Source: Hemileia vastatrix (Eukaryota > Basidiomycota > Pucciniomycetes > Pucciniales > Zaghouaniaceae). Taken from it: a stretch of 64,000 bases of DNA. The stretch spans positions 20,162,683-20,226,682 of the forward strand of contig JASXTE010000002.1 of NCBI GenBank assembly GCA_030280995.1, given 5' to 3'. The notes beneath the pieces are model-generated. The model ran no database searches and had not been told where the DNA came from. It saw nothing but the letters and a program-made list of their open reading frames with translations. Shown here in pieces: positions 4,473 to 64,000 of this stretch. Numbering within the stretch: the first letter of the stretch is position 1; every line of letters starts with the position of its first letter. Made by a program: the position numbers and the translations under genes.

Positions 4473-4477
4473 AAATG

Positions 4478-5283: not shown

Positions 5284-5288
5284 AAATG

Positions 5289-28440: not shown

Positions 28441-28645
28441 CAAAAATTTTCACCAAAATATTTACAAGTCAAAAAAATTCTATATCTGTTTTAAAAAATT
28501 GGCAATACTCTCCCCTGCATTTTATTGAAGCAAGGGGTGGGTATCACCAAAATTTTTCTAAGTCATCAATTTCACATGTCAGATTTAAAAATTTGCCAAT
28601 ACCCCCCCCCCTGCATTTTATTGAAGTAAGTGGTGGAAGTCATCT
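28440..28645. repeat. AATAAA-bearing ~95-bp repeats (element 1)
   Basis: Two units with ATTTTATTGAAGYAAGTGG, i.e. CTTCAATAAAAT on the minus strand, directly downstream of the TET-like gene. They fit as polyadenylation region. Fuller arrays are at 55330-55745 and 62590-63015. Confidence 0.65.
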
Positions 28646-28936
28646 AAATTTAATATAATTACGTAAATTATTAAATAAATATCTAATATATATCACTTTC
28701 CCTAGTTTAAAGTAATGACAATCCCTCAAGCCAAAATGCAGATCAAATCTAGAAACAAAAGTTTGGGACTTTCCACAAGTATAGGCTAGAGGAACCCCAT
28801 GAAACAAATAAATGTTATCATGATTACCATTTATACAACACAAGGTCATGGGCCCATTACTTTAGTTGAGGAAATTGATACATAAAAAATATTTATTAAA
28901 AATTTACAAAAAAATATAAAATTTTCGATGACAACT

Positions 28937-29565
28937 CTAATCCCCATACTTTTTGGATCTAAATAAAGTTTTTTTAAATCGATTAACTTTACCTTCTTTC
29001 ATTACCTTATTGATTCTTTGAATCAACTTATGACTGATTTGAAATGAGCAACCAAAATGTGTTAAATGTTGACAGGATTCCAAACCAGGAAGAGCTTTGG
29101 TCGTTTGATGATTATCCTTAGAAGAATTCCAAATAGTTTCAATGATACCATTTCCCAAACCAAAATCAATGATGCACCGGTGGTCTGGAAAATATAAACC
29201 ATGTCATTTGATTTTAGCTGCAGATGGTATTGGTTGGCCAGTAATCGGTTTGATATATGAGAATATACCAAAAGTAAGAAAATTGGTGTCATTGGTATCG
29301 GTGTGAATTTTATTGTGAAATCCAGAATGAGTGATAATAACATTAGAAAATAAAAGATATTTGTGGCTGATATCTTCCCATTCGGAGTCACACCAATTCG
29401 GTATTCCAACTTTGGTTGCAAGTTCATGATTTTTTTCAAATGCTTTATTACAGTGCTTTTTGAGTCGAAGAGCAAGAAAAGAGTTAAAGGAAGGTAGAGT
29501 GTCCCATAAGCAAAAATTTTCATCTTTTTGAGCTTTAGTGATATTCTTGAGCAACAAATACATGC
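28937..29565 (-). pseudogene. TET/JBP-like 2OG-Fe(II) dioxygenase, 3' exon (element 1)
   Basis: The exon begins after an AG acceptor with GMYLLLKNITKAQKDENF. It encodes the oxygenase core: ITHSGFHNKIHTDTNDTNFL (HxD), FGIFSYIKPITGQP, IIDFGLGNGIIETIWNS and DNHQT (distal His), then HLTHFGCSFQISHKLIQR. A TGA replaces GGA in KIK-GHG (29204-29206); the frame is open again after it. The 5' exon with GWRPGF, present in element 5, is missing and replaced by TTAGGG-type repeats. The same TGA is in element 2, so both descend from one already damaged copy. Confidence 0.65.
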
Positions 29566-31904
29566 CTATATAATTGAAATGCCTAGATAATAATCATATA
29601 AGAGTTTCAGAATCCTTATCCTCTAAATATGCAATATAAAAATGTGAAATAAAACAAGTGAAATTTGGAAAAAAGGCTCAACTTCAAAGGTCAAAATCTC
29701 AGCAACCACTGAACCTAATTCAAACCTGTTTGAGGGAAATGAAAGATATGCTTTAGTAGAATCTTCAGTTAAAGGACATGTGATTTAAATAAACCTAACC
29801 CTAATTTGTTACATAAAAAAATGAAATAAAAATTTAAATTGGGAAAAAAAAGGCTCAACTTTAACGGTCAATATCTCAGCAACCACTGAATCAAATTAAA
29901 ATCTGTTTGTGGGAAATGAAAGTTAGCCTTCAGGAGAATCTTCAGCAAAAAGAACATTAGATTTGAATAAACCTAACCCTAATTCCGAGTCTGATTTTCA
30001 AAATTTTACAAAAACTTGAAAAGTGGTAATGAAGATGAGATCAAAAGGAGTTTTATAAGTTCACTGTTATCCAGATAAGAGTCATACATATATTTAAGTA
30101 TGAACTTTTCATAAAAGCAATGAGATATCATATAGGCATGAAAAAAAGGAGATGAAACTTACCTTGTTTGAAAAGTAGGAAAAATAGAGTGAGAAAGATT
30201 GATGTTGGAATTGTGGGGAAATTGAATATGGAGTAAGTGAAATGCATAAAGAATGTGCAAAGTATGTGTTTCAATGAAAAGGAACCAAAAAAAAGTGAAA
30301 TAAGGGAAAGGGGGGATAATTACCATGCCAAGGAGGGATGAAGAGTAGGGTGATGAAGCTAAAAAAGAAAGTAAAGAGGGAGAGAAAAAAAAGGTTAATT
30401 ATACCATTGAAATCCAAAATAACCACTTACAAAAACTATTTAGATAAAAAAAATAAAATAAACAGAAAAAAACAAAAAAAATTATAATAGTAATCAAAAA
30501 ATCAAAAAAAAAGAATAAAGTGACTTACCTGGAGAGATGAGATGACAAAATGAATGAAACCAAATTGTTTGAGGGATGTTGGAGGAGAATAGGAAAAGGA
30601 TATGAGGGTTGAATGAAAAAAAAAATCACTGACAAAATAGGGGGTGTCAGTTCTGGAAAATCCGCACTTAACTTAAGTGCGGATTTCAAACCAAATCAGC
30701 ACTTACAAATCAGCACTTAAATTTTGTAAAAAAGTCACTTATTTCAAAAAAGGGTGTCAGTTATGACCTCAAATCAGCACTTTTTTCCCATTTTTTTTCA
30801 CAACCACATTTTGGCCACAAAACATCCCTTCCTTTCTTACCCCATCCCTGTCACATGTGACACACTGACCTTCCTCACTCCCTACCCATCAATCCTCGGC
30901 ACACACCCCTTCCTGACATTTTCAATATTTTGACCGGGCATGTTTGCATTCTTTTTTACTTATTTCTTCTACTTCTTAATCTTTTTTCTATGGGTGTCAG
31001 TTCTGACCTCAAATCAGCACTTTTTTCGTGATTTTTTTTTCAAAACCACATGTTGGCCACATCATCCCTTTCTTTCCCATACCATTTTGTACTCTCCAAA
31101 TGTCCTCTTTGTGTACTTCATTCACTTGGGTTGGTATTTTGGTTTGTTGCATATTCATTTTTTTTGGAATTTACGGTGAATTTTTTTTTTTGGATGGCTC
31201 ATTGGTTTTCTTTCACCAGCTCAACATGAAATTGCATATTTTCTGAAATCGCATATTTTGTCAGTGATTTTTTTTTTCATTCATCCCTCATATCCTTTTC
31301 CTATTCTCCTCCAACATCCCTCAAACAATTTGGTTTCATTGATTTTGTCATCTCATCTCTCCAGGTAAGTCACTTTATTCTTTTTTTTTGATTTTTTGAT
31401 TACTAATTATAATTTTTTTTTGATTTTTTCTGTTTATTTTATTTTTTTTATCTCAATTTTTTTTGTAAGTGGTTATTTTGGATTTCAATGTTATAATTAA
31501 CCTTTTTTTTCTCTCCCTCTTTACTTTCTTTTTTAGCTCCATCACCCTACTCTTCATCCCTCCTTGGCATGGTCATTATCCCCCCTTTCCCTTATTTCAC
31601 TTTTTTTTGGCTCCATTTCATTGAAACACATACATTGCACATTCTTTATGCATTTCACTTACTCCATATTCAATTTCCCCACAATTCCAACATCAATCTT
31701 TCTCACTCTATTTTTCCTACTTTTCAATCAAGGTAAGTTTCATCTCCTTTTTTTCATGCCTATATGATATCTCATTGCTTTTATGAAAAGTTCATACTTA
31801 AATATATGTATGACTCTTATCTGGATAACAGTGAACTTATAAAACTCCTTTTGATCTCATCTTCATTACCACTTTTCAAGTTTTTGTAAAATTTTGAAAA
31901 TCAG

Positions 31905-32235
31905 ACTCGGAATTAGGGTTAGGTTTATTCAAATCTAATGTTCTTTTTGCTGAAGATTCTCCTGAAGGCTACCTTTCATTTACCACAAACAGATTTGAAT
32001 TTGATTCAGTGGTTGCTGAGATATTGACCATTAAAGTTGAGCCTTTTTTTTCCCAATTTAAATTTTTATTTCATTTTTTTATGTAACAAATTAGGGTTAG
32101 GTTTATTTAAATCACATGTCCTTTAACTGAAGATTCTACTAAAGCATATCTTTCATTTCCCTCAAACAGGTTTGAATTAGGTTCAGTGGTTGCTGAGATT
32201 TTGACCTTTGAAGTTGAGCCTTTTTTCCGAATTTC
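31905..32235 (+). repeat. Two ~180-bp TTAGGGTTAGG units (element 2)
   Basis: AATTAGGGTTAGGTTTATT recurs at about 31912 and 32091, each followed by CAAACAG, TTCAGTGGTTGCTGAGAT and GTTGAGCCTTTTTT. The units stand where the 5' exon of the TET-like gene should be. The telomere-like motif is not iterated. Confidence 0.7.
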
Positions 32236-32329
32236 ACTTGTCTTATTTCACATTTTTATATTGCATATTTAGAGGATAAGGATTCTGAAACTCTTATATG
32301 ATTATTATCTAGGCATTTCAATTATATAG

Positions 32330-32958
32330 GCATGTATTTGTTGCTCAAGAATATCACTAAAGCTCAAAAAGATGAAAATGTTTGCTTATGGGACACTCTA
32401 CCTTCCTTTAACTCTTTTCTTGCTCTTCGACTCAAAAAGCACTGTAATAAAGCATTTGAAAAAAATCATGAACTTGCAACCAAAGTTGGAATACCGAATT
32501 GGTGTGACTCCGAATGGGAAGATATCAGCCACAAATATCTTTTATTTTCTAATGTTATTATCACTCATTCTGGATTTCACAATAAAATTCACACTGATAC
32601 CAATGACACCAATTTTCTTACTTTTGGTATATTCTCATATATCAAACCGATTACTGGCCAACCAATACCATCTGCAGCTAAAATCAAATGACATGGTTTA
32701 TATTTTCCAGACTACCGGTGCATTATTGATTTTGGTTTGGGAAATGGTATCATTGAAACTATTTTGAATTCTTCTAAGGATAATCATCAAACGACCAAAG
32801 CTCTTCCTGGTTTGGAATCCTGTCAACATTTAACACATTTTGGTTGCTCATTTCAAATCAGTCATAAGTTGATTCAAAGAATCAATAAGGTAATGAAAGA
32901 AGGTAAAGTTAATCAATTTAAAAAAACTTTATTTAGATCCAAAAAGTATGGGGATTAG
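32330..32958 (+). pseudogene. TET/JBP-like 2OG-Fe(II) dioxygenase, 3' exon (element 2)
   Basis: Follows TATATAG at 32329. In frame from ATG 32332: LKNITKAQKDENVCLWDTLP, CNKAFEKNHELATKVGIPNW, then the HxD motif (His codon 32590, Asp 32596) and, after the TGA at 32689-32691, the distal His (32785) in DNHQTT and HFGCSFQIS. The order of HxD, a glycine-rich strand, distal His and FGCSFQ fits the Tet-like oxygenase family known from rust fungi; the assignment is from memory of that family. These enzymes oxidise 5-methylcytosine or thymine in DNA using Fe(II) and 2-oxoglutarate. With one nonsense codon and no 5' exon it is inactive. Confidence 0.65.
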
Positions 32959-33045
32959 AGTTGTCATCGAAAATTTTATATTTTTTTGTAAATTTTTAAT
33001 AAATATTTTTTATGTATCAATTTCCTCAACTAAAGTAATGGGCCC

Positions 33046-33255
33046 ATGACCTTGTGTTTTATAAATGGTAATCATGATAACATTTATTTGTTTCATGGGG
33101 TTCCTCTAGCCTATACTTGTGGAAAGTCCCAAACTTTTGTTTCTAGATTTGATCTGCATTTTGGCTTAAGGGATTGTCATTACTTTAAACTAGGGAAATT
33201 GATATATATTAGATATTTATTTAATAATTTACGTAATTATATTAAATTTAGATGA
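33046..33255 (+). other. Conserved 69-codon block downstream of the dioxygenase (element 2)
   Basis: An open frame with GNHDNIYLFHGVPLAYTCGK and LHFGLRDCHYFKLGK. It recurs in frame at 28640-28849 (-), 55127-55330 and 62385-62594, and broken in element 0. It could be a small exon or gene, or simply conserved 3' sequence. I recognise no domain. Confidence 0.35.
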
Positions 33256-33450
33256 CTTCCACCACTTACTTCAATAAAATGCAGGGGGGGGGTATTGCCA
33301 AATTTTCAAATCTGACATGTGAAATTGATGACTTAGAAAAATTTTGGTGATATCCACCCCTTGCTTCAATAAAATGCAGGGGAGAGTATTGCCAATTTTT
33401 TAAAACAGATATAGAATTTTTTTGACTTGTAAATATTTTGGTGAAAATTT
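33256..33450. repeat. AATAAA-bearing ~95-bp repeats (element 2)
   Basis: Two units with CTTACTTCAATAAAATGCAGG and CTTGCTTCAATAAAATGCAGG, directly after the 69-codon block. At about 33450 they join the transposase fragment. Confidence 0.65.
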
Positions 33451-48972: not shown

Positions 48973-48974
48973 TG

Positions 48975-49238
48975 TGGGTAAAGAGAGGTGAAGGGGGGGG
49001 GTTTGAGGCGCCAAAAGAGAGGTGAAGGGGGGGGTTTGAGGGACATAAAGAGAGGGGAAGGGGGGAGTATTGAAGCACCTAAAAAGAGGGGAAAGGGGGT
49101 GATGAGGGACCTAAAGAGGGGGGAAAGGGGGGATTTGAGGCAGCTAAAAAGGGGGTAAAAAGGGGGTCAGAGACAGGTAAAGAGAGGGAAAAAGGGGGGC
49201 CTTGAGGATCATAAAGAGAGGTGAAGGAGAGAAAAAAA
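48975..49238 (+). repeat. Polypurine tandem units of ~35-40 bp
   Basis: About seven diverged units of the form AAAGAGAGGTGAAGGGGGG then TTTGAGG. The pyrimidine-strand equivalent lies downstream of the element 5 transposase (59890-60085). Confidence 0.8.
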
Positions 49239-49343
49239 AACAAAAAAATAAAAAGATAAAAAAGAGAAAAAAGCAAAACAAAAATTAGTTTACCCTAGAA
49301 CAAAAATAATAGAAGCACTTACAAAAAAAACAAAAAAACCAAA

Positions 49344-49374
<31 letters not shown>

Positions 49375-49706
49375 AATCATGATTAGCAAATAAAAAACCA
49401 TGAAAAAAGAAAAAAATGACCTACCTGGTGAGTTGAGTTGAGAAAATAAATGCAACCAAAATATTTGAGGGATGTTTGAGGAGAATAGGAAAAGGATATG
49501 AGTGATGAATGAAAAAAAAAATCACTGACAAAATATGCGATTTCATGTTGAGGAAGTGAAAGAAAACCAATGAGCAATCCAAAAAAAAGATATTCACCGT
49601 AAATTCAAAAAAAAAAATGAATATGCAACAAACCAAAATACAAAACCAAGTGATTAAAGTACACAAAGAGGACATTTGGAAAGTATGAAAACATAAAAAT
49701 TAAAAA

Positions 49707-50966
49707 TTAAAAGGGTGAAGAGAAATGTTGAAGAGTAATTGGCATTATAATGGGGCGTATGCCGGTTGATTGAATGATTTGTGAATCAAGGGAGGGGAGT
49801 GCCAGTGGTGGTTCAGGATCCTCTTCTTCATAAAGATCATTCCACTCATCCTTTAAATCAGCTAGAATATTGTGGAGTATTACGCAAGTCAAGATCCAAT
49901 GATTTGCAGTTTTGATCTCCAATTTTTTTTGAAATTGGATTCTGAGCTCCCGAAGACTAGAAAATCGTCCCTTTAAAATACCTATAGCATGTTCAATTCG
50001 TACTCTTGATTGTGCAAGGTGATAATTAAATTTAGTTTTGGGGTCATTTTCTGAAGTTGCACCACGGAAAGCAGGTATAATGTACTTTCCACTTGCATAT
50101 GCTGAGTCTGCAAGGAGGTACTGAGATTCGTCAAAGTATGATTCAGGGGATTGAGAAATCCTCATTCTTTGGAAGACGGAAGAGTCATGACATGATCCAG
50201 GGCAGCCACTGTGAAAAGCAATAAATTTTTTATTGACATCGCATACAAGTTGAACGGCAATAGAGTATCTAGAAAGAAGATAAAAAGTTAGATTGTGAAA
50301 GATGAGAACTTGGAGAAGATTTTGAAGAAACCTTTTTTTGTGATCAAAATAATGGTTGCCATCATGAGCAGGCTTTTGACTCAAAGGTATAGTTGTGCCA
50401 TCAACAAATCCTATACAGCCAGGGAAACCTTCAGATTGCATTACTTGAGAGGATTCAAGTCGCTGTTCTGGAGTTGGCCAAGCAAGAGTTTGAGACTTGA
50501 GGGAAAGGATAGCAATCATACAGCGCTTGGTGTATAATATCACGGTACCATATCCTATGTTAAAGAGATTATCCAAACGTCTTACGGCAGCACCATTTCC
50601 ATTTGAGCCAAAGCCACATAGAGCAACAGCAAGTTGGATGGCAGGATTACACTGTTTGTTATGAGAATTGTTATGGAAGATAGGATGATCGGAGATGAGT
50701 TGATAAAGTTTGAGGAAAGAATCAGGAGATGTTCTAAAAAGTTGTGTGAAGTTTAAATGAGGAATGTTGAGAATGGAGGCCAGATCATATCGGCGATCAT
50801 GATAAAGATTTGGCCCCCTGGTGATGATGTAACGCTTTTTGGAAAGAAAACACATATAAGCTAAAGCATCTTCCAAATCAGAGTCAGATTTATAGTAAAG
50901 AACTAAAAGAAAAGTGATAGCATTCATTGTTGAGTGAAGTAGCTTCCTAGTAGAGAGGTGTTTCAT
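49707..50966 (-). CDS. Harbinger-type DDE transposase (element 3), intact
   Basis: ATG at 50966 (MKHLSTRKLLHSTMNAITF); 419 codons unspliced. A 63-bp segment at 50331-50269 has GTTTCT donor, CTAAC branch motif and TTTCTAG acceptor and matches the intron position of the element 6 gene, so the real protein is probably 398 aa. The segment is a multiple of three without stops, so retention also gives a full frame. D in GFVDGTTIPLSQKPAHDG, D in LLADSAYASGKY and E in SRVRIEHAIGILKGRF are all present, as is QLAVALCGFGSNGNGAAVR. It shares about the same layout as the family 1 enzyme but is clearly diverged. Likely functional on family 2 TIRs. Confidence 0.9.
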   Translation of the reverse strand: MKHLSTRKLLHSTMNAITFLLVLYYKSDSDLEDALAYMCFLSKKRYIITRGPNLYHDRRYDLASILNIPHLNFTQLFRTSPDSFLKLYQLISDHPIFHNNSHNKQCNPAIQLAVALCGFGSNGNGAAVRRLDNLFNIGYGTVILYTKRCMIAILSLKSQTLAWPTPEQRLESSQVMQSEGFPGCIGFVDGTTIPLSQKPAHDGNHYFDHKKRFLQNLLQVLIFHNLTFYLLSRYSIAVQLVCDVNKKFIAFHSGCPGSCHDSSVFQRMRISQSPESYFDESQYLLADSAYASGKYIIPAFRGATSENDPKTKFNYHLAQSRVRIEHAIGILKGRFSSLRELRIQFQKKLEIKTANHWILTCVILHNILADLKDEWNDLYEEEDPEPPLALPSLDSQIIQSTGIRPIIMPITLQHFSSPF

Positions 50967-51348
50967 TGTTGCCGGTGGAAGGGTTAAGTGATGAGGGAAG
51001 TGGGAATTCACCGCCAAATGTGCAGTTGGGGTGTGTAGATAGAAAAAAACTTAAGTGTTCGCCACCAAAATTAAGTAGCATAGAGTAAGGAAATACTTAA
51101 GGATGGCATCAGCAATTATAAGTCATGTGAATTTCTTAAAAATCCATCATGGATGAGATGAGTTTGGGATCAGGAATTAGGAATGGAAATTGGGGTATAA
51201 GAGGCGGGATAATGCATTATCATGGATTTCTTATCCACTAGCCCCAGGGCTAGTGGATAAGAATCTTCTGCAATTAATAATGTCTGATCCCGGGAAAAAA
51301 AATTCCTGATCCCTAATTGCGGATCCCTGAACATTGATACCCCCTATT

Positions 51349-51500
51349 CTTTATAGATCAACTTTAATAATTGGAAATTCCTATCTGTGGAATTTTTGTT
51401 TCTCTGATACTCATGTATATAGAATATTGGTTCCACAGTTCCTCTCCTTTTTGTCTATATAAGGCCTCTCAATTTAGCTGTTTTCTTTCATTCCATTATT
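51349..51500 (+). mobile_element. Gypsy-A-type LTR, segment 2 of 3
   Basis: Contains the LTR TATA region (TATATAAGG at 51456-51464) and the following CTCTCAATTTAGCTGTTTTC, matching 10020-10080 inverted. ATT at 51346-51348 and 51498-51500 are target copies of elements 3 and 4. Confidence 0.8.
51456..51464 (+). promoter_or_regulatory. TATA box of the split LTR
   Basis: TATATAAGG in the position of the CCTATAAAAGGCC box of the Gypsy-A 5' LTR. The promoter now lies between two DNA transposons. Confidence 0.55.
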
Positions 51501-51880
51501 AGGGGGTATCAATGTTCAGGGATCCGCAATTAGGGATCAGGAATTTTTTTTCCCGGGATCAGACATTATTAATTGCAGAAGATTCTTATCCACTAGCCCC
51601 AGGGCTAGTGGATAAGAAATCCACGATAATGCATTATCCCGCCTCTTATACCCCAATTTCCATTCCTAATTCCTGATCCCAAACTCATCTCATCCATGAT
51701 GGATTTTCAAGAAAGTCACATGACTCATTATTGCTGATGTCATCCTTAAGTCTTTCCTCACTCTATGCTACTTAATTTTGGTGGCAAACACTTAAGTTTT
51801 TTTTCTATCTACACACCCCAACTGCACATTTGGCAGTGAATTCCCACTTCCCTCATCACTTAACCCTTCCACCGGCAACA

Positions 51881-53140
51881 ATGAAAAACCTCTCTGCTAG
51901 GAAGCTACTTCACTCAACAATGAATGCTATTACTTTTCTTTTAGTTCTTTACTATAAATCTGACTCTGATTTGGAAGATGCTTTAGCTTATATGTGTTTT
52001 CTTTCCAAAAAGCGTTACATCATCACCAAGGGGCCAAATCTTTATCATGATCCCCGATATGATCTGGCCTCCATTCTCAACATTCCTCATTTAAACTTCA
52101 CACAAATTTTTAGAACTTCTCCCGATTCTTTCTTCAAACTTTATCAACTCATCTCCGATCATCCTATCTTCCATAACAATTCTCATAACAAACAGCGTAA
52201 TCCTGCCATCCAACTTGCTGTTGCTCTATGTTGCTTAGGCTCAAATGGAAATGGTGCTGCCGTAAGACGTTTGGATAATCTCTTTAACATAGGATATGGT
52301 ACCGTAATATTATACACCAAGCGCTGTATGATTGCTATCCTTTTCCTCAAGTCTCAAACTCTTGCTTGGCCAACTCCAGAACAGCGACTTGAATCCTCTC
52401 AAGTAATGCAAGCTGAAGGTTTCCCTGGCTGTATAGGTTTTGTTGATGGCACAACCATCCCTTTGAGTCAAAAGCCTGCTCATGATGGCAACCATTATTT
52501 TGATCGCAAAAAAAGTTTTCTTCAAAATCTCCTCCAAGTTCTCATCTTTCACAATCTAACTTTTTATCTTCTTTCTAGATACTATATTGCTGTTCAACTT
52601 GTATGCGATTTCAATAAAAAATTTATTGATTTTCATAGTGGCTGCCCTGGCTCATGTCATGACTCTTCCGTCTTCCAAAGAATGAGGATTTCTCAATCCC
52701 CTGACTCATACTTTGACAAATCTCAGTACCTCCTTGCAGACTCAGCATATGCAAGTGGAAAGTACATTATACCTGCTTTCTGTGGTGCAAATTCAGAAAA
52801 TGACCCCAAAACTAAATTTAATTATCACCTTGCACAATCAAGAGTATGAATTGAACATGCTATAGGTATTTTAAAGGGACGATTTTCTAGTCTTCGGGAG
52901 CTCAGAATCCAATTTCAAAAAAAATTGGAGATCAAAACTGCAAATCATTGGATCTTGACTTGCGTAATACTCCACAATATTCTAGCTGATTTAAAGGATG
53001 AGTGGAATGATCTTTATGAAGAAGAGGATCCTGAACCACCACTGGTACTCCCCTCCCTTGATTTGCAAATCATTCAATCAACCGGCATACGCCCCATTAT
53101 AATGCCAATTACTCTCCAACATTTCTCTTCACCCTTTTAA
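51881..53140 (+). pseudogene. Harbinger-type transposase (element 4)
   Basis: ATG 51881 (MKNLSARKLLHSTMNAITF). One in-frame TGA at 52847-52849 replaces CGA two residues before the catalytic Glu (SRV-stop-IEHAIGIL). The reading frame is otherwise open to 53140. The intron donor seen in elements 3 and 5 (AAAAGGTTTC) reads AAAAGTTTTC here, so splicing should also fail. Both Asp motifs (GFVDGTTI, LLADSAY) are kept. Confidence 0.9.
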
Positions 53141-53979
53141 TTTTTAATTTTTATGTTTTCATACTTTCCAAATGTCCTCTTTGTGTACTTTAATCACTTG
53201 GTTTTGTATTTTGGTTTGTTGCATATTCATTTTTTTTTTTGAATTTACGGTGAATATCTTTTTTTTGGATGGCTCATTTGTTTTCTTTCACCAGCTCAAC
53301 ATGAAATCACATATTTTCTGAAATTGCATATTTTGTCAGTGATTTTTTTTTTCATTCATCCCTCATATCCTTTTCCTATTCTCCTCCAACATCCCTCAAA
53401 CAATTTGGTTTTATTCATTTTGTCATATCATCTCTCCAGGTAAGTCATTTTATTCTTTTTTTTTGATTTTTTGATTACTAATTATAATTTTTTTTTGTTT
53501 TTTTCTGTTTATTTTATTTTTTTTATCTAAATTTTTTTTGTAAGTGGTTATTTTGGATTTCAATGGTATAATTAACCTTTTTTTTCTCTCCCTCTTTACT
53601 TTCTTTTTTAGCTCCATCACCCTACTCTTCATCCCTCCTTGGCATTGTCATTATCCCCCCTTTCCCTTATTTCACTTTTTTTTGGCTCCATTTCATTGAA
53701 ACACATACATTGCACATTCTTTATGCATTTCACTTACTCCATATTCAATTTCCCCACAATTCCAACATCAATCTTTCTCACTCTATTTTTCCTACTTTTC
53801 AATCAAGGTAAGTTTCATCTCCTTTTTTTCATGCCTATATGATATCTCATTCCTTTTATGAAAACTTCATACTTAAATATATGTATGACTCTTATCTGGA
53901 TAACAGTGAACTTATAAAACTCCTTTTGATCTCATCTTCATTACCACTTTTCAAGTTTTTGTAAAATTTTGAAAATCAG

Positions 53980-54305
53980 ACTCGGAATTAGGGTTATGTT
54001 TATTCAAATCTACTGCTCTTTTTACTGAAGATTCTCCTGAAGGCTACCTTTCATTTCCTGCAAACAGATTTGAATTTGATTCAGTGGTTGCTGAGATATT
54101 GACTGTTAAAGTTGAGCCTTTTTTTCCCAATTTAAATTTTTATTTCATTTTTTTATGTAACAAATTAGGGTTAGGTTTATTTAAATCACATATCCTTTAA
54201 CTGAAGATTCTACTAAAGCATATCTTTCATTTTCCACAAACAGGTTTGAATTAGGTTCAGTGGTTGCTGAGATTTTGACCTTTGAAGTTGAGCCTTTTTT
54301 CCAAA
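53980..54305 (+). repeat. Two ~180-bp TTAGGGTTA units (element 4)
   Basis: The same two units as in element 2, at about 53988 and 54166, with few differences. They precede the dioxygenase exon. Confidence 0.7.
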
Positions 54306-54403
54306 TTTCACTTGTCTTATTTCACATTTTTATATTGCATATTTAGAGGATAAGGATTCTGAAACTCTTATATGATTATTATCTAGGCATTTCAATTATA
54401 TAG

Positions 54404-55033
54404 GCATATATTCGTTGGTCAAGAATATCACTAAAGCTCAAAAAGATGAGGATTTTCGCTTATGGGACACTCTACCTTCCTTTGACTCTTTTCTTGCTTT
54501 TTGACTCAACAAGCTCTGTAATAAAGCATTTGAAGAAAATCATGAACTTGCAACCAAAGTTGGAATACCGAATCGGTGTGACTCCGAATGGGAAGATATC
54601 AGCCACGAAATTCTTTTATTTTCTAATGTTATTATCACTCATTCTGGATTCCACAATAGGATTCATATCGATAGGAATGATGCCAATTTTCTTACTTTTG
54701 GAATATTCTCATATATCAATCCGATAACTGGCCACCCAATACCATCTCCAGCTAAAATCAAAGGACATGGTTTATATTTTCCAGACCACCGGTGCATCAT
54801 TGATTTTGGTTTGGGAAATGGTATCATTGAAACTATTTGGAATTCTTCTAAGGATAATCATCAAATGACCAAAGCTCCTCCTGGTTTTCGAATCCTGTCA
54901 AGATTTCACTCATTTCGGTTTTTCTTTTCAAATAAGTCAAAAGTTGATTCAAAGAATCAACAAAATAAAGAAAGAAGGTAAAGTTAATCAATTTAAAAAA
55001 ACTTTATCTAGATCAAAAAAGTATGGGGATTAG
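54404..55033 (+). pseudogene. TET/JBP-like 2OG-Fe(II) dioxygenase, 3' exon (element 4)
   Basis: Starts after TATATAG with GIYSLVKNITKAQKDEDF. TGA at 54502-54504 replaces CGA of elements 1 and 2. The HxD motif is HID (His 54664, Asp 54670) in HNRIHIDRNDANF. KIKGHGLYFPDHRC is intact, with GGA where elements 1 and 2 have TGA. A one-base insertion near 54886 shifts the frame just after the distal His (DNHQMT), spoiling the FGCSFQ motif. The 5' exon is missing, as in elements 1 and 2. Confidence 0.65.
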
Positions 55034-55126
55034 AGTTGTCATCAAAAATTTTATATATTTTCATAACTTTTTAATAAATATTTTTTATAAATCAATTTCC
55101 TCAACTAAAGTAATGGGCCAACAACA

Positions 55127-55330
55127 TTGTGTTGTATAACAGGTAATCATGATAACATTTATTTGTTTCATGGGGTTCCTCTTGCCTATACCTGTGGAAA
55201 GTCCCAAACTTTTGTTTCTCAACTTGGTCTGCATTTTGGCTTGAGGAATTGTCATTACTTTAAACTAGGGAAATTGATATATATTAAATATTTATTTAAT
55301 AATTTATGTAATTATATTAAATTTAGATGA
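55127..55330 (+). other. Conserved downstream block (element 4)
   Basis: Open for 67 codons with GNHDNIYLFHGVPLAYTCGK; differs from the element 2 copy at several residues but keeps the frame. Confidence 0.35.
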
Positions 55331-55745
55331 CTTCCACCCCTTACTTCAATAAAATGCAGGGGGGGGGGTATTGCCAAATTTTCAAATCTGACATGTGAAA
55401 TTGATGACTTAGAAAAATTTTGGTGATACCCACCCCTTGCTTCAATAAAATGCAGGGGAGAGTATTGCCAATTTTTTTAAACAGATATAGAATTTTTTTG
55501 ACTTGTAAATATTTTTGTGATACCCGTCCCTTACTTCAATAAAATCCATGGGGGGTTTTGCCAAAATTTCTTATAAGACTTGTGAAATTCTTGACATGTA
55601 AGAATTTTTGGGATACCAGTAAAATGCAGGGGGTAGTAAAGCCAAATTTTCATATAAAACTTTAAAGATTCATGACATGAAAGAATTTTTGTGATACCCA
55701 CTCCTTACTTCAAAAAAATCCAGGGGTGGGGGATTGTCAAATTTT
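55330..55745. terminator. Five AATAAA-bearing repeats between convergent genes (element 4)
   Basis: Units of about 88-98 bp share CCTTACTTCAATAAAATGCAGG, GCCAAATTTTC and GACTTGTGAAATT. They lie between the TET-like gene (+) and the Myb-like gene (-), so they probably serve as 3' end region for one or both. The plus-strand AATAAA fits a polyadenylation signal. Confidence 0.6.
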
Positions 55746-55883
55746 CAAAGGAGACTTGAAAATTTTATTTAAAAAAAGAATATTTAACATTAAAATATGA
55801 TATTTCAAGAAATACAGAAAAAAATTGTAAAATTTATGTACAAATAAATATGAACACATGAAGTGTGAAAGAAATAAAAGAAA

Positions 55884-57231
55884 CTAGTCAACAAAAAATT
55901 TCATTAATTGTTCTATTTCTTCAACAGATTTTTTTGCTTTAATGCATTTGATCAAGAAATCTTTCTTTTTAGAACTTTCTTGAAGATCATGCTTATACTT
56001 CATCTTTTCCATTAAGTTTTGATGCTCGAGTGTTTTTTCCTCTTTTTTGGATTTTTCAATACTAAGAGTTAACTCGAACTTCTTCTCCTCCAAATCTTGG
56101 ACCCGATCATCCTTCTGTAAGGAGAGCACGTACTTCCTCTCTTCCAAATCTTGTACTCTGTCATCCCTCCTTAAAGAGAGCTCGTATTTCTTCTTTTCAA
56201 AGCTTAGAGTCTCTTTAGAAATTTCCACTTGTTCTAGAGTGAGAATAAAAATTAACATAAAGTAGAAGAAAAGCAGAGTAAAGTAATAAGAGGTATGGAA
56301 TCACTTACCAGCATCACATTTCTCTAAAAATTATTCCATAGACGAAAAAGGGGTTTGTGATGAAGTATCACTTTTTCATCTTCTTTGGGAGTGGAAATTT
56401 AGACTACTTGAAGCCCTTCGCTTTTTGTTCAACATAGCATTTTCCTCCTCATCATTGTCACTAGCTTCAGACTCAGTTGATTGTGGGTCCTGGGCTTGTT
56501 TGTCAGCCTTTTAAGAAATAAGAAAATCCAAGTAAATAAAAAAAAGTATTGATAAGATAAAAGAAAAAAAAACAGACTTGAGTTAGATTGGGTTGGGTTA
56601 AATTGCCAATAGGATCTATAGCAAAGCTATCTAGATTCGTAGAATTTAGAAGAGGGGAGGCTTGAGTGGAGGAAGAGGATGGGAAAAGATTTGCTTCGAC
56701 ATCATGTTTGGAGATAGGATCTTCACCATCCAACATGTTTACAGGATTAACATCGGCTCACTCTCCAAAAATTGCATCCATCTCTTTAAATTAAGGACAT
56801 AAAGTTTCAAGTTTATTGTCTATGGATTTTATGCCCTTAGTTATATTGTTGTCGGTAACCCCAAAACCAGTGGAAGATGAAAGAGCCTTTGCCTTCTTGT
56901 ATTTTGCTCGGTAATGCTTGAATCGTTCAGACATCTGTTTAGGCAAAAGATCAATCCTTCCCTTGGTCTTATTCTGTAATTCATTTGCCATTATAAGATA
57001 GCCATTAACTTTTGATGCGGGGGGCCGTCCTACTTTAGTGGCATACTCAGTACCAAAACAAGAATCATAGTTAGATTTGGTTTTCAGCCAGTTGATAAGA
57101 ATGAGATGTTCATCTTTTTTTAATTGAACGGTCTTTGATTTCTCGGCTGAGCGGGGGAAAGAGGAAGTAGTTGGAATTGAAGAACAACTGGGTGATGGCT
57201 GCCTTTGAGAAGATCTAGGATGACAAGGCAT
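55884..57231 (-). pseudogene. Myb/SANT-like DNA-binding protein (element 4)
   Basis: Exons 57231-56578, 56507-56309 and 56233-55884, with the same intron positions and exon 1 and 2 lengths as element 3. The DNA-binding domain is intact (HLILINWLKTKSNYDSCFG, KQMSERFKHYRAKYKKAKAL). Stops: TAA at 56791-56793 (TAC in element 3) and TGA at 56758-56760 (CGA in element 3). Exon 3 is 54 bp shorter because it has three rather than four 18-residue coiled-coil repeats. Confidence 0.85.
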
Positions 57232-57585
57232 GTTATTATAAATGAAGATGAAAAGGAGCAGAAACAAGCAGATGAGATAGCAAGATGAAAAGGAGCAGAA
57301 TCAAATAGATGAAATGGGGAGAAATTCTGAGCGGATAGAATGAACAGGATGGGATGAGAATGGAAGTGCGCAGCAAGGTAGAAGGCTGGGATATCCAGAA
57401 AGTTGTCCAAGATGTGGTTATGAAATATTGAGGATAAAAATGTCAGATAAGAGGTGAACATTGACACGTAAAGTGTCTAATAACCCAATTATTAGCAAAA
57501 ATAATTGCGGAAGATAATTGGGGTATGCAGATTATTTTCCGCAATTAATTTAATTGCGGATCGGTCAACATTGATACCCCCTATT

Positions 57586-57740
57586 ACTTACTTTACAATC
57601 AAATATTATATTTACAAACCCATTCTATTACTATTATTTCTACCTTATTATTTACAACAGCATGGTTCTAAGTCTTTAAAGTAATAATAATAATAATCTT
57701 CTTACCTTTTCATTGAGTAATAACATATAAAGAAATAATT
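57586..57740 (+). mobile_element. Gypsy-A-type LTR, segment 3 of 3
   Basis: ACTTACTTTACAATCAAATA continues the LTR after element 4 and matches the Gypsy-A 5' LTR at about 9900-10020 inverted. ATT at 57583-57585 and 57738-57740 are target copies. The end of the LTR lies beyond element 5, outside the window. Confidence 0.8.
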
Positions 57741-58118
57741 AGGGGGTATCAATGTTCAGGGATCCGCAATTAGGGATCAGGAATTTTTTTTCCGGGATCA
57801 GACATTATTAATTGCAGAAGATTCTTATCCACTAGCCGCGGGGCTAGTGGATAAGGATCCACAATAATGCATTATCCCGCCTCTTATACCCCAATTTCCA
57901 TTCCTAATTCCTGATCCCAAACTCATCACATCCATGATGGATTTGCAAGAAAGTCACATGACTCATAATTGCTGATGCCATCCTTAAGTCTTTCCTCACT
58001 CTATGCTACTTAATTTTGGTGGCAAACACTTAAGTTTTTTTTCTATCTACACACCCCAACTACACATTTGGCAGTGAATTCCCACTTCCCTCATCACATA
58101 ACCCTTCCACTGGCAACA

Positions 58119-59381
58119 ATGAAACACCTCTCTACTAGGAAGCTACTTCACTCAACAATGAATGCTATTACTTTTCTTTTAGTTCTTTACTATAAATCTG
58201 ACTCTGATTTGGAAGATTCTTTAGCTTATATGTGTTTTCTTTCCAAAAAGCGTTACATCATCACCAGGGGGCCAAGTCTTTATCATGATCCCCGATATGA
58301 TCTGGCCTCCATTCTCAACATTCCTCATTTAAACTTGACCCAACTTTTTAGAACTTCTCCTGATTCTTTCTTCAAACTTTATCAACTCATCTCCGATCAT
58401 CCTATCTTTCATAACAATTCCCATAACAAACAGCATAATCCTGCCATCCAACTTGCTGTTGCACTATGTCGCTTTGGCTCAAATGGAAACGGTGCTGCTG
58501 TAAGATGTTTGGATAATCTCTTTAACATAGGATATGGTACCGTGATATTATACACCAAGAGCTGTATGATTGCTATCCTTTCCCTCAAGTCTCAAACACT
58601 TGCTTGTCCAACTCCAGAACAGCGACTTGAATCCTCTCAAGTAATGCAATCTGAAGGTTTCCCTGGCTGTATAGGATTTGTTGATGGCACAACTATACCT
58701 TTGAGTCAAAAGCCTGCTCATGATGGCAACCATTATTTTGATTGCAAAAAAAGGTTTCTTCCAAATCTTCTCCAATTTCTCATCCTTCATAAACTAACTT
58801 TTTATCTTCTTTCTAGATACTCTATTGCCGTTCAACTTGTATGCAATTTCAATAAAAAATTTATTGATTTTCATAGTGGCTTCCCTGGCTCATGTCATGA
58901 CTCTTCCGTCTTCCAAAGAATGAGGATTTCTCAATCCCCTGACTCATACTTTGACGAATCTCAGTACCTCCTTGCAGACTCAGCATATGCAAGTGGAAAG
59001 TACATTATACCTGCTTTCTGTGGTGCAAATTCAGAAAATGACCCCAAAACTAAATTTAATTATCACCTTGCACAATCAAGAGTACGAATTGAACATGCTA
59101 TAGGTATTTTAAAGGGACGATTTTCTAGTCTTCGGGAGCTCAGAATCCAATTTCAAAAAAAATTGGAGATCAAAACTGCAAATCATTGGATCTTGACTTG
59201 CGTAATACTCCACAATATTCTAGCTGATTTAAAGGATGAGTGGAATGATCTTTATGAAGAAGAGGATCCTGAACCAGCACTGGCTCTCCCCTCCCTTGAA
59301 TCACAAAACATTCATTCAACCAGCATACACTCTGTCATTATGCCTATTACTCTCCAAAATTTCTCTTCACCACCCTTTTAA
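58119..59381 (+). CDS. Harbinger-type DDE transposase (element 5), intact, 399 aa if spliced
   Basis: The in-frame extension upstream begins with TTG, so I take ATG 58119. The frame is open for 420 codons. A 63-bp intron-like segment (58754-58816; GTTTCT, AACTAAC, TTTCTAG) is in phase and stop-free; splicing gives 399 aa and restores KKRYSIAVQL as in element 6. Residues (spliced): D189 in GFVDGTTIPL, D266 in LLADSAYASG, E304 in RVRIEHAIGI. QLAVALCRFGSNGNGAAVR at about 110-128 is the probable helix-turn-helix. The TET-like gene follows in the same direction 1.56 kb downstream. A few oddities (RCLDNL, FDCKKR, HSGFPG) differ from element 3 and could weaken activity. Confidence 0.88.
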   Translation: MKHLSTRKLLHSTMNAITFLLVLYYKSDSDLEDSLAYMCFLSKKRYIITRGPSLYHDPRYDLASILNIPHLNLTQLFRTSPDSFFKLYQLISDHPIFHNNSHNKQHNPAIQLAVALCRFGSNGNGAAVRCLDNLFNIGYGTVILYTKSCMIAILSLKSQTLACPTPEQRLESSQVMQSEGFPGCIGFVDGTTIPLSQKPAHDGNHYFDCKKRFLPNLLQFLILHKLTFYLLSRYSIAVQLVCNFNKKFIDFHSGFPGSCHDSSVFQRMRISQSPDSYFDESQYLLADSAYASGKYIIPAFCGANSENDPKTKFNYHLAQSRVRIEHAIGILKGRFSSLRELRIQFQKKLEIKTANHWILTCVILHNILADLKDEWNDLYEEEDPEPALALPSLESQNIHSTSIHSVIMPITLQNFSSPPF

Positions 59382-59639
59382 ATTATTTTTTTTAATCTCC
59401 AAATTTTCTCTTTGTGTACTTCATTCACTTGGTTTGGTATTTTGGTTTGTTGCATATTCATTTTTTTTTTGGAATTTACGGTGAAGATCTTTTTTTTGGA
59501 TGGCTCATTGGTTTTCTTTCACCAGCACAACATGAAATTGCATATTTTGTCAGTGATTTTTTTTTCATTCATCATTCATATCCTTTTCATCCTCTCCTCA
59601 AACATCACTCAAATATTTTTGTTACTTTTATTTTCTCAA

Positions 59640-59850
59640 CTCATCTCACCAGGTAAGTATTTTTTTTTCTTTTTTCTTGTTTTTAATTTGCTAATCATGA
59701 ATTTTTTTATTTTGGTTTTTTTTGTTTTTTGTTTTTTGTTTTTTTTTTTTTATTTTTATTTTTTTTATTTTTATTTTGTTTATTATTTTAAAATTTTTTT
59801 TTGTAAGTCCTTATTTATTTTCAAGGTTAGACTAACTTTTTTTTTTTCTC

Positions 59851-59881
<31 letters not shown>

Positions 59882-60480
59882 CTCCTTCACCCCTTTTCCT
59901 CTCTCTTTACCTGCCTCAAGTCTTTCCTTCTCCACTCTCTTTACCTTCCTCAAGACCCCCTTATTTCACCCTCCTTGCCTGTCCCGAATGCCCCCTTTCC
60001 CCCCTTCCCCTCTTTTTAGGAGCCTCATCACCCCCCTTCCCCTCTCTTTAGGCGCCTTAGCTCTCCCCCCTTCCCCCTCCTTCTTATCAAACGATTGCTA
60101 ACGATCGTTCATTAAGTAAAAGAATCACTAATGATTCATTTACTTAACAAATGATCATTAGCAATTATTTGTTTAGGAGGAGAAGGGGCTAGAGAAGGCT
60201 TAAGGGGAGTTTAAGGGGGGTTTGAAGCGGCTAAAGAGGGGAGGAAAGGAGGGGGGTTTTGGACATATAAAGAGGGGTAAAAGGGGGGGGGTTTGGGGGG
60301 GTTTTGTGGCAATTAAGGAAGGGGTTTCAGGGGGATTTTGAGACAGGCAAGGAGGGGATTTGAGGGTGGTTTTGAGGCAAGGAGGGAGGGAATTTAGAGG
60401 TGATTTCAGAGAAAGAAAGGGGGGGGGAAAGGGGACTGTAATGGGAGTTAAAGAGGGGTTACCTATTTTTTAAAAAACAT
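59640..60480. repeat. Poly-T, pyrimidine and purine tracts around a palindrome (element 5)
   Basis: T-rich at 59660-59880, then CTCTTTACCTGCCTCAAG-type pyrimidine units to 60085, then an inverted-repeat stretch (AACGATTGCTAACGATCGTT ... AATGATCATTAGCAATTATT), then purine units to 60460. The two halves resemble each other inverted, so the region could fold into a long hairpin. No gene. Confidence 0.7.
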
Positions 60481-60941
60481 ACTAAAATGTAACTTTTTTT
60501 TTTTGGCAGATTTTTAGAAAAAAAAACTATTACATTCTGTTAAGGTCTTTCCCTGTAAATTACAAAACAAAAAAGGTTTAGATATTAATTTTTAATTTTT
60601 CTTACAAATAATTTTACTGAATTAATTTTTTTTTAATTTTATTTGTTCTGATTTTTCTTTTACAGATTTTTTATTTATTTTTTATTTTTATTTTTTTATT
60701 ATTTTGACAGGATTTTTTGTGAAGGTTTTTTATAACCAAACTTCAGGTTTTCTTTTGTAATTTTTTTTTTGAAATAATTTTTACTGAAAATTTTTGAATT
60801 TTTTTTGTTTTAATTTTTTTTTAAATTTTTTAAAAGGATATTGCTTTATATTTTATTTTAAAAGATATTATTACGTGAGTTTTTTTTAAAAATATGTGTT
60901 GAATTTTTTTTTGACATTTAATTTTTTTTCAGATAAAATAA

Positions 60942-62296
60942 ATGTCTTCTTCTTCAGATTCACCCCTTACTTCTATATCATCTTCATCTTTATCCTCTTT
61001 ATCATCTTCATCTTTATCATCTCTCTCATCTTCTTCAAAATCAACTTCAATACAATCATCTTCTAAATCATCAAAAAAAATTAATGATAATCAGTCTCAT
61101 CAGAATAAAAGATATCTGAAAAAAAATTTCTTCTTCTAAATCATCCAAAAAAAAATTAAAGATAATCAGTCTTATCAGAAGAAAAGATATCTGAAAAAAA
61201 ATTCATCATCTAAATCAACAAAAAAAATTAAGGATAGTCAGTATTATTGGAAGAAAAGATATCTGAAAAAAAAAAGTTCTCTGTGAAAGTTATTTTCGTC
61301 ATATCCCAAACATTTTTTTTCATAAAACTAAAGTAGATAAAAAAATCAATATCCAAAAAAATTACCAGAAGATATCAAATATTTAACCAAATTTGGAGAT
61401 GATTGAGTTGTTGCAGTTATCAGTAATACTTTTAAGGCTCAATTCATTCGATTGTGTAAAAAATGAATCTTTTAATCAACTATCCAATCTTATCATAACT
61501 CTTTATCAACTGGCTTTGGTTCGGTTACCTATAAGGAATACGAATTTGTTGGGTGGTATCATGATTGGATTTGGTTGGAGACCAGGTTTTGTTAAAGGAT
61601 ATTCTCTTGGTATGTCTAATAATTTTTTTCCATTCTTAATATCATTTCACTTATTACATTTATATAGGCATATATTCATTGGTCAAGAATATCACTAAAG
61701 CTCAAAAAGATGAAGATTTTTGCTTATGGGACACTCTACCTTCCTTTAACTCTTTTCTTGCTCTTTGACTCAAAAAGATCTGTAATAAAGCATTTGAAAA
61801 AAATCATGAACTTGCAACCAAAGTTGGAATACCGAATTGGTGTGACTCCAAATGGGAAGATATCAGCCACGAAATTCTTTTATTTTCTAATGTTATTATC
61901 ACTCATTCTGGATTCTACAATAGGATTCATATTGATAGAAATGATGCCAATTTTCATACTTTTGGTATATTCTCATATATCAATCTGATAACTGGCAAAC
62001 CAATACCATCTCCTGCTAAAATCAAAGGACATGGTTTATATTTTCCAGACCATGGGTGCATCATTGATTTTGGTTTGGGAAATGGTATCATTGAAACTAT
62101 TTGGAATTCTTCTAAGGATAATCATCAAATGACCAAAGCTCCTCCTGTTTTGGAATCCTGTCAAGATTTAACACATTTTGGTTGCTCATTTCAAATCAGT
62201 CATAAGTTGTTTCAAAGAATCAACAAGGTAAAGAAAGAAGGTAAAGTTAATCAATTTAAAAAAACTTTATCTCGATCCAAAAAGTATGGGGATTAG
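60942..62296 (+). pseudogene. TET/JBP-like 2OG-Fe(II) dioxygenase with 5' exon (element 5)
   Basis: ATG 60942 starts a Ser-rich leader (MSSSSDSPLTSISSSS), followed by three ~68-bp basic repeats of the type KKINDNQSHQNKRYLKK (61055-61265). Frameshifts in A runs break this part. Further on: EDIKYLTKFGDD, TFKAQFIRLCKK, then NLLGGIMIGFGWRPGFVKGY. A 58-bp intron (61610-61667) joins YSLG to IYSLVKNITKAQKDEDF. The core has TGA at 61766-61768 for CGA, HxD as HID (His 61928, Asp 61934) in FYNRIHIDRNDANF, KGHGLYFPDHGC, distal His 62123 in DNHQMT and HFGCSFQISHKL, ending KKYGD. The pattern matches the Tet-like oxygenases of rust fungi as I recall them; such enzymes oxidise modified bases in DNA. The His-rich ITHSGFYN and the basic repeats could help bind DNA. 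Other HxD oxygenases are possible. Damaged in at least three places. Confidence 0.68.
61610..61667 (+). other. Intron of the TET-like gene (element 5)
   Basis: 58 bp, GTATGT donor and TTTATATAG acceptor. Splicing makes GYSLG-IYSLVKN continuous. Elements 1, 2 and 4 keep the acceptor but have lost the exon before it. Confidence 0.7.
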
Positions 62297-62384
62297 AGTT
62301 GTCATCGAAAATTATATATTTTTTCATAAATTTTTAATAAATATTTTGTTATATATCAATTTTCTCAAGTAAAGTGATGAGCCA

Positions 62385-62594
62385 ATGACCTTTGGTTGTA
62401 TAACAGGTAATAATGATAACATTTATTTGTTTCATGGGGTTCCTCTAGCCTATACCTGTGAAAAGTCCCAAACTTTTGTTTCTAGATTTGATCTGCATTT
62501 TGGCTTGAGGAATTGTCATTACTTTAAACTAGGGAAATTGATATATATTAGATATTTATTTAATAATTTATGTAATTATATTAAATTTAGATGA
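62385..62594 (+). other. Conserved downstream block (element 5)
   Basis: 69 codons with GNNDNIYLFHGVPLAYTCEK; frame kept in four copies despite substitutions. Function unknown; it may not be translated. Confidence 0.35.
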
Positions 62595-63015
62595 CTTCCA
62601 CCCCTTACTTCAATAGAATGCAGGGGGGGGGTATTGCAAAATTTTCAAATCTGAAATGTGAAATTAATGTCTTAGAAAAATTTTGGTGATACCCACCCCT
62701 TGCTTCAACAAAATGCAGGGGAGATTATTTCCAATTTTTTAAAACAGATATAGAATTTTTTTGAATTGTAAATATTTTGGTGAAATTTTTTTGGTGATAC
62801 CCGTCCCTTACTTCAATAAAATCCATGGGGGGTTTTGCCAAAATTTCTTATAAGACTTGTGAAATTCTTGACATGTAAGAATTTTGGAGATACCAGTAAA
62901 ATGAAGGAGGTAGTAAAGCCAAAGTTTCATATAAGACTTTCAAGATTCATGACATGAAAGAATTTTGGTGATACCCACCCCTTACTTCAAAAAAATCCAG
63001 GGGTGGGGGATTGTC
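62590..63015. terminator. AATAAA-bearing repeats between convergent genes (element 5)
   Basis: Same five-unit array as in element 4, slightly diverged (first units CTTACTTCAATAGAATGC and CTTGCTTCAACAAAATGC have lost AATAAA). Confidence 0.55.
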
Positions 63016-63179
63016 AAATTTTAAAAGGAGACATGAATTTTTTTTTAAAAAAAAGAATATTTAACATTAAAAAAAAAAATTCAAGTAATGATTGATAGAG
63101 TAATGAAATACAGGAAATTATTGTAAATTTTATGTACAAATAAATATGAACAGTCGAAGTGTGAGAGGAATAAAACAAA

Positions 63180-64000
63180 CTAGTCATCCAACAATTTCTT
63201 TAAACTTTCAATTTCCTCAATAGATTTATTAGCTTTGACACATTCTATCAAGAAATCTTTCTTTTTGGAATTTTCTATATGATCAAACTAATATTTCATC
63301 TGCTCTAATAGGTTTTGATGTTCAAGTGTTTTCTCCTCTTTTTTTGATTTTTCAATACTTAGAGTTAACTCAAATTTCTTCTCCTACAAATCTTGGGCCC
63401 GACCATCCTTCTGTAAAGAGAGCTCGTACTTCCTCTCCTCCAAATCTTGGGCCCGATAATCCTTCCGTAAAGAGAGCTTGTTTTTCCTCTCTTCAAAATC
63501 TTGTAGCCTATCATCCCTCCTTAAAGAGAGCTCATATTTCTTCTTTTCAAAGCTTAGAGTCTCTTTAGAAATTTCTACTTGTTATAGAGTGATAATAAAA
63601 ATTTATATAAAGTGGAAGAAAAGTAGAGTAAAGTAATAAGAGGTATGGTATCACTTACCAGCATCACATTTCTCTAAAAATTGTTCCATAGACAAAAAAG
63701 GGGTTTGTGATGAAGTATCAATTTTTCCTCTTCTTTGTGAGTGGAAATTTAGACTACATGAAGCCCTACGCTTCTTGTTCAAGGTCATATTTTCCTCATC
63801 ATTGTCACTACCTTCAGACTCAGTTGATTGAGGATCCTGGGTTTGTTTGTCAGCCTTTTAAGAAATAAGAAAAAGATAAGTAAATAAAAAATAGAAATGG
63901 TAAGATAAAAGAAAAAGAAAAAAAGACCTGAGTTAGATTTGGTTGTGTTAAATCACCAATAGGATCTACAGAAAAGCTATCTAGATTTGTCTCATTCAAA
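63180..64000 (-). pseudogene. Myb/SANT-like gene, 3' part (element 5)
   Basis: Exon 3 (63583-63180), exon 2 (63854-63659) and the end of exon 1 (64000-63928) are seen. Stops in exon 3: TAG in DLQD-type repeat 3 (QDL-stop-EKKFEL) and in KY-stop-FDH. The intron 2 acceptor is CTCTAT instead of CTCTAG. At least three coiled-coil repeats are present, plus KKKDFLIECVKANKSIEEIE. The DNA-binding domain lies outside the window. Confidence 0.8.

Follow-up and report, generated by a model that had tools for sequence, protein, structure and literature searches.

TET-bearing Harbinger families have been described from five Puccinia species and from Austropuccinia psidii, under the name PHISTA, in Kojima 2025 (PMC12730594), where they are credited with a TA target duplication and a third protein without Myb/SANT, and where it is proposed that TET-bearing elements escape methylation-based silencing. 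P. coronata, P. striiformis and P. graminis are PHISTA species in that account, which also gives 0, 2 or 3 base pairs (bp) as the duplication lengths of the PHIS superfamily. Here we consider a stretch of 64,000 nucleotides from the rust Hemileia vastatrix (Zaghouaniaceae; contig JASXTE010000002.1, positions 20,162,683 to 20,226,682 of the forward strand; hereafter the window), in which positions 51501-57582 are a single Harbinger-type element with a three-gene order: transposase, Tet-like 2-oxoglutarate (2OG)-Fe(II) oxygenase, and a convergent third gene. We regard it as probable that this element stems from an old three-gene lineage of PIF/Harbinger (PHIS) transposons, probably an anti-silencing one, of which the copy at hand represents a TET-truncated branch.

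An initial annotation of this DNA had left it open whether the pairing of a Harbinger transposon with such an oxygenase had been described; it has been, in the six rusts treated in Kojima 2025 (PMC12730594). The principle is known, then, and what was not found in the open-licence literature is the Hemileia lineage, its duplication of the form AWT (W being A or T) and its TET-truncated subfamily: a search joining Hemileia vastatrix with TET and dioxygenase found nothing there, one joining PHISTA with transposon and Puccinia found Kojima 2025 (PMC12730594) only, and the main text of that article, as far as accessible, does not name Hemileia. Our assignment would extend TET-bearing Harbinger elements to Hemileia, beyond the two genera given for such elements there.

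What the Hemileia element has in common with PHISTA, as characterised there, is a PHIS-type DDE transposase, a TET/JBP gene and a third protein, all between terminal inverted repeats (TIRs) and in a rust host; what separates the two is that PHISTA duplicates TA and lacks Myb/SANT in its third protein, whereas in Hemileia the duplication is AWT and the third protein has a weak Myb/SANT match. With canonical PIF/Harbinger elements and with Nuwa it shares a DDE_Tnp_4 transposase, TIRs and a 3-bp duplication (Nuwa also encodes a Myb/SANT protein), but these have no TET gene according to Kojima 2025 (PMC12730594). The Dileera, hAT7, IS3EU, EnSpm, ESTA and Helitron1 elements of rusts in the same source are likewise DNA transposons with a PU-type TET/JBP gene, but have other transposases, ends and target duplications.

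Boundaries, gene content and target site of the element

The element is laid out as follows (coordinates, strand, feature, basis):

51501..57582, plus strand, the focal Harbinger-type element from TIR to TIR, 6,082 bases (TIR arms and whole copies elsewhere in the genome)
51501..51532, plus strand, 5' terminal inverted repeat (arm pairing)
57551..57582, minus strand, 3' terminal inverted repeat (arm pairing)
51498..51500, no strand, left copy of the target duplication, ATT (sequence; 3-bp AWT rule from other copies)
57583..57585, no strand, right copy of the target duplication, ATT (sequence)
51881..53140, plus strand, DDE_Tnp_4 transposase frame with one in-frame TGA (PF13359; alignment with rust transposases)
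54400..54985, plus strand, C-terminal exon of a Tet-like 2OG-Fe(II) oxygenase that has HxD and the distal H; one in-frame stop and one frame break interrupt it (PF20515; tblastn)
55884..57231, minus strand, convergent third gene of several exons (open reading frames, sub-cut-off Pfam matches, homologue L110)

The arms (51497-51532 and 57551-57586) pair at 89%, and the repeats start with AGGGGGTATCAATGTT; the 15-mer GGGGGTATCAATGTT, with up to two mismatches allowed, occurs five times in the window, where 100 shuffles give 0.10 on average. The sequence between the repeats holds a transposase (PF13359), an oxygenase exon of the Tet-like family (PF20515) and a convergent gene, so that the matching TIRs, the ATT on either side and the gene content reported in the initial annotation all hold. 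As a correction to that annotation, the transposase consists of two pieces parted by the in-frame TGA, with PF13359 E-values of 2.2e-13 and 3.6e-5, the second being slightly below the cut-off (23.9 versus 24.8 bits). An adjacent element of the same lineage (57741-64949) has an open transposase frame at 58119-59381, which matches the same DDE_Tnp_4 profile at E=4e-26. About 21 residues of the focal frame are missing from relatives in the alignment with rust transposases and probably represent a short in-frame intron. The stretch that parts the TET gene from the third gene contains, at 55319-55758, tandem-like repeats of the type CCACCCCTTACTTCAATAAAATGCAGGGG, which are also present in further copies of this lineage.

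To what extent the boundaries hold can be seen from copies elsewhere in the genome. A DNA search with the TET exon yielded 3,788 first-look candidates, and among the 40 that were scored, matches other than those in the window are 96-98% identical. Five loci were taken whole: three align from TIR to TIR at 95.5-96.9%, one aligns up to base 6011 and has the 3' TIR, and one is without the 5' part. Both TIRs with the TET exon between them are present in four of the five, and the gene accordingly does not lie outside the TIRs, as it might have done had the initial annotation been mistaken. Among the ends of 20 further copies, both TIRs, with the same ends on both sides, were found in 17; the other three showed no TIR on one side within the stretch examined.

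These copies also define the target site. The flanking triplets match in 16 of the 17 pairs (nine AAT, seven ATT), while the seventeenth pair is AAT and ATA and has a 3' TIR one base shorter. Three of the five whole loci (L064, L065 and L066) are inserted in other copies of their own family and provide natural empty sites: with one triplet kept, the joined flanks match uninterrupted copies in alignments that need no gap at the join (the triplets beside L066 are ATA and ATT; L063, the fourth locus tested for nesting, is not nested). Since 16 of 17 triplet pairs agree and three nested insertions concur, the target duplication is 3 bp, AWT, demonstrated in the nested cases by the empty sites themselves; a TA duplication, as in PHISTA, is rejected on the same evidence. 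Canonical Harbinger elements duplicate TWA, the Hemileia elements AWT. A length of 3 bp is one of those given for PHIS.

The target site bears directly on whether the Hemileia element might simply be a member of Kojima's PHISTA, in which case TA versus AWT would be a matter of reading and the third gene would be the PHISTA third protein. A TA is also present at both ends just outside GGGGG...CCCCC, made up of an A or T and the first base of the TIR, which makes the TA reading an easy one to arrive at from single copies. The superfamily, the gene set (transposase, TET, third protein) and the fungal order are all shared with PHISTA, the Myb match of the third gene stays below the cut-off, and the closest transposases in a protein search are rust proteins of P. 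coronata and P. striiformis (about 50% identity), both PHISTA species in that text. Yet the co-varying AAT and ATT triplets and the nested empty sites speak for 3 bp. Furthermore, a quickly built tree with 63 rows groups the window's three rows with six rows from P. coronata and P. striiformis (Shimodaira-Hasegawa-like approximate likelihood ratio test, SH-aLRT, 99), apart from a separate group of P. graminis, which is a PHISTA species too, though which rows of the tree are PHISTA could not be told. The tree leaves out proteins shorter than 300 residues and three fragments, and family B enters it only as a piece. Weighing both sides, we see membership in PHISTA as a live possibility that we slightly disfavour.

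The Tet-like gene and the three-gene order

The initial annotation had called the oxygenase from the HxD...H residues, and a significant profile match now backs that call: the open reading frame (ORF) at 54505-54981 matches PF20515 with E=3.9e-21 over profile positions 85-210 of 211 and so carries a Tet-like 2OG-Fe(II) oxygenase domain. The protein of locus L026 matches with E=9e-34 over positions 7-211 of 211. The iron-binding residues are conserved: of 66 loci, all keep the His of HxD, 61 keep its Asp and 63 keep the distal His. A TET/JBP gene tied to a transposase is reportedly found in the KDZ transposons of mushrooms as well, which Iyer and co-workers are said to have described in 2014 (work that Kojima also cites), but there the transposase lineage (Kyakuja, Dileera, Zisupton) and the TET type are different.

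Here the initial annotation needs correcting, for the focal gene is not intact. By tblastn its frame is interrupted by one stop and broken near 54887, its domain is incomplete, and the N-terminal exon that the neighbour possesses is missing; we reject it as a complete gene on account of that absent first exon. This is not peculiar to one copy. TET exon 1 is present in all 30 of the loci with the best PF20515 matches (L001-L030) and in the neighbour (L061), whereas among the 30 loci nearest the focal copy it is present in one (L060) and absent in 29, the focal copy included; L062-L066 are also without it. A search with exon 1 gave 2,790 candidates, and in the 40 that were scored, matches other than those in the window are 87-95% identical, from which TET-complete relatives are many and seem to be older. 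Because the first TET exon is absent and two genes have broken frames, the focal copy is no working example, and it is best read as a decayed member of a TET-truncated derivative.

Does the TET exon of this subfamily still do anything? We lean towards the view that it is a functionless passenger, which has lost its first exon and persists only through young copies. The absence of the first exon from the loci just listed fits this view, as do the 96-98% identity of the closest copies and the divergence within the focal family (mean dN 0.022 and dS 0.043 for nonsynonymous and synonymous change, 11 rows). Speaking for some remaining role, a second-exon frame of 218 residues is open in many truncated-subfamily loci, and a short upstream ORF with a GTAAGT donor could be joined to the second exon in frame. 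That this ORF is an exon is speculation, and neither observation is proof of a protein.

Turning to the third gene, the convergent gene of the initial annotation is present, but its Myb identity is not firm: the minus-strand ORF 56791-57300 scores 14.4 bits against a Pfam cut-off of 27 (E=0.053). The gene has a weakly Myb/SANT-like N-terminal part (57231-56794) and a coiled-coil-like C-terminal part (56300-55884), and it probably encodes a Myb/SANT-like partner protein that contains a coiled coil. With regard to the PHISTA gene set, the window therefore offers TET together with a third protein whose Myb/SANT match is below threshold.

Is the three-gene order a property of the lineage or an accident of one family? 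The neighbour, which we take to be the fifth element of the initial annotation, repeats the order identically, just as had been claimed. Upstream of diverged TET genes, L107 has a transposase of 59% identity (PF13359 5.3e-26, stops read as X) and L109 has transposase pieces of about 51% (PF13359 3.3e-5, at 24.0 bits slightly below the cut-off); a transposase tail (68% over 44 residues) lies upstream of TET at L003. Pieces of the coil part of the third gene lie downstream and convergent in 14 of the 30 loci L001-L030, where the flanks span 1.5 kb only, and downstream of the L026 gene there is a third gene (L110) that is 47% identical to that of the window. None of the loci examined showed a diverged family as a complete element with a TIR at each end. 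In two lists of 150 scored matches each for TET and transposase, two pairs lie within 6 kb of each other where 0.36 would be expected, a weak excess, with both pairs in the expected order and strand. Chance adjacency of TET and transposase is rejected, given that complete copies recur and the order partly persists in other families.

The TET exon bears the marks of purifying selection. Of nine pairs compared between subfamilies, six have an estimable dS and give dN/dS ratios of 0.066-0.239, while the remaining three are saturated for synonymous change; one within-family pair has a ratio of 0.33. We read this as long purifying selection that would have preceded the recent spread. The pattern used to pick exons for this comparison demanded His-Phe at one place; rows picked by it are no evidence for that His, because the pattern itself required it, and the motif counts were redone without the pattern. 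The proposal that the oxygenase is a true third gene survives in that the exon lies inside the TIRs, the order is partly kept in diverged families and the exon has been under purifying selection; it does not extend to the focal copy, which is not intact.

Several observations weigh against a lineage with a working anti-silencing oxygenase and a Myb-like partner. The place in the TET exon that we matched by eye to what we take to be the 2OG-binding Arg of TET2 is occupied by His in 62 of 65 loci (54755-54985 and L001-L066). A protein search with the L026 TET protein had 3,944 candidates and no match at E<=1e-3, and the structure model of the TET piece is poor (predicted local distance difference test, pLDDT, 33). 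A profile search of PDB gave 0 matches up to E=10. We know of no enzyme activity for this TET-like protein. For the third gene, Myb_DNA-bind_4 is matched by three of five sequences, all below the cut-off (14.4-20.4 versus 27 bits; best E=7.1e-4), the other two match nothing in Pfam, a protein search with 14 candidates had no match at E<=1e-3, and the structure model is again poor (pLDDT 47). No transposase showed up at L108, located upstream of another TET gene at a distance of 1.5 kb. Finally, the dN and dS given above for the focal family amount to weak constraint, and the dN/dS loci were drawn from rankings by TET score or by resemblance to the focal exon, a choice that biases the comparison towards intact exons.

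CpG decay and the putative role of the oxygenase

If the elements were methylated, one would look for a mutational signature at CpG. In 26 rows, transitions reach 129.8 per 1000 at CpG; the figure for the remaining C/G sites is 9.9, which gives an odds ratio of 14.9. CpG transitions peak after T, at 169.0 per 1000 for TCG; rows of one family are not independent, so that p-values are only a guide. This count omits L032, L046, L054 and L060, which have 264-733 differences each (the next row has 114); with these four rows included (30 rows), the values are 139.7 at CpG versus 20.7-23.4 per 1000 in other contexts. In the focal copy, CpG transitions make up 12 of 48 differences. As this decay is strong and highest at TCG, it suggests that the elements are methylated, and it agrees with the TCG hypermutation in Pucciniomycotina that Kojima 2025 (PMC12730594) cites.

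In the complete element, then, the transposase, aided by the third protein, would move the element by cut-and-paste, and the oxygenase would oxidise 5-methylcytosine and thereby help the lineage to escape silencing. It would most likely act in trans, since the protein would be available to every copy. The focal subfamily (6.1 kb), whose first TET exon is absent, would for that reason rely on complete relatives for TET function.

The initial annotation had suggested that the oxygenase may remove or modify DNA methylation at the element, its TIRs or the target. Nothing we see shows that it removes methylation at its own element. CpG transitions run at 175.1 versus 12.7 per 1000 in the TET-complete L026 family (5 rows), at 131.5 versus 7.1 in the focal family (5 rows), and at 250.0 (7 of 28) versus 28.7 in the L004 family (14 rows). 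Protection from CpG decay was sought in the TET-complete families (L026 and L004 rows) and none was seen, which also counts against an anti-silencing enzyme; with similar relative decay in TET-complete and truncated families there is no sign of protection in cis.

The same comparison can be turned in favour of a different activity, namely that the oxygenase introduces some other DNA modification (on thymine or adenine, for instance, or a cytosine modified further) by which the element is marked or protected. In relative terms the TET-complete family has no less CpG decay, a His stands where the 2OG-binding Arg would be expected, and Kojima 2025 (PMC12730594) leaves other activities of PU-type proteins open. 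Among the ORFs and Pfam matches of the element, on the other hand, we noticed no enzyme that could serve as a partner in further modification, and the decay pattern supports methylated CpG as the expected substrate; we consider another modification quite improbable.

A bolder version of the anti-silencing reading would hold that Hemileia has a TET-bearing Harbinger lineage of its own, distinct from PHISTA and marked by the AWT duplication and a Myb-like gene, whose young truncated subfamily spreads by means of the anti-silencing enzyme that its relatives supply in trans. We think this unlikely as a whole; were it true, it would be a case of a transposon parasitising another transposon's demethylase. 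Be that as it may, TET-complete and TET-truncated families in one genome, both with methylation-type decay, form a natural pair that could reveal whether a transposon-borne TET lowers methylation, in cis or in trans.

Related elements and other features of the window

The window contains four further pieces related to the focal element:

57741..64000, plus strand, fuller neighbour element of the same lineage (L061), which ends at 64949, 949 bases beyond the window
49250..51345, minus strand, inverted relative, 5' part (bases 1-2108) with open transposase frame (sequence comparison)
28450..30639, minus strand, partial copy that includes the TET exon and forms the left arm of an inverted pair (tblastn and sequence comparison)
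31090..33444, plus strand, partial copy with TET exon, right arm of the inverted pair (tblastn and sequence comparison)

In the neighbour, TET exon 1 lies at about 61267-61638 and exon 2, with one stop, at about 61658-62248. The TET exon is also found by tblastn at 29569-28985 (minus strand) and 32326-32910 (plus strand). We take these to be the first and second elements of the initial annotation, which had rightly placed an oxygenase exon in both; they are partial copies in an inverted pair and not complete elements. The whole of 28037-33857 is a palindrome of about 5.8 kb, made up of the two opposed partial copies with a piece of transposase from a related family, B, outside each.

An element-like stretch on the minus strand at 42406-47124 combines a family-B 5' end (AGGGGGTGTCAGTT..., by eye) with a family-A 3' end. 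Its flanking triplets are unlike, AAT versus ATT, so that the stretch could represent a chimera or else a pair of broken elements.

Elsewhere in the window, minus-strand frames at 2085-7579 and 17156-19706 resemble by eye pieces of gag, reverse transcriptase and integrase of long terminal repeat (LTR) retrotransposons. A long purine-rich strand run with AAAAG-like simple repeats extends over 10545-12485, where GC skew rises as high as 0.94 and AT skew as high as 0.89, with a low-complexity open frame of 646 codons on its minus strand, and four tandem copies of a repeat unit of about 158 bases lie at 48374-49020.

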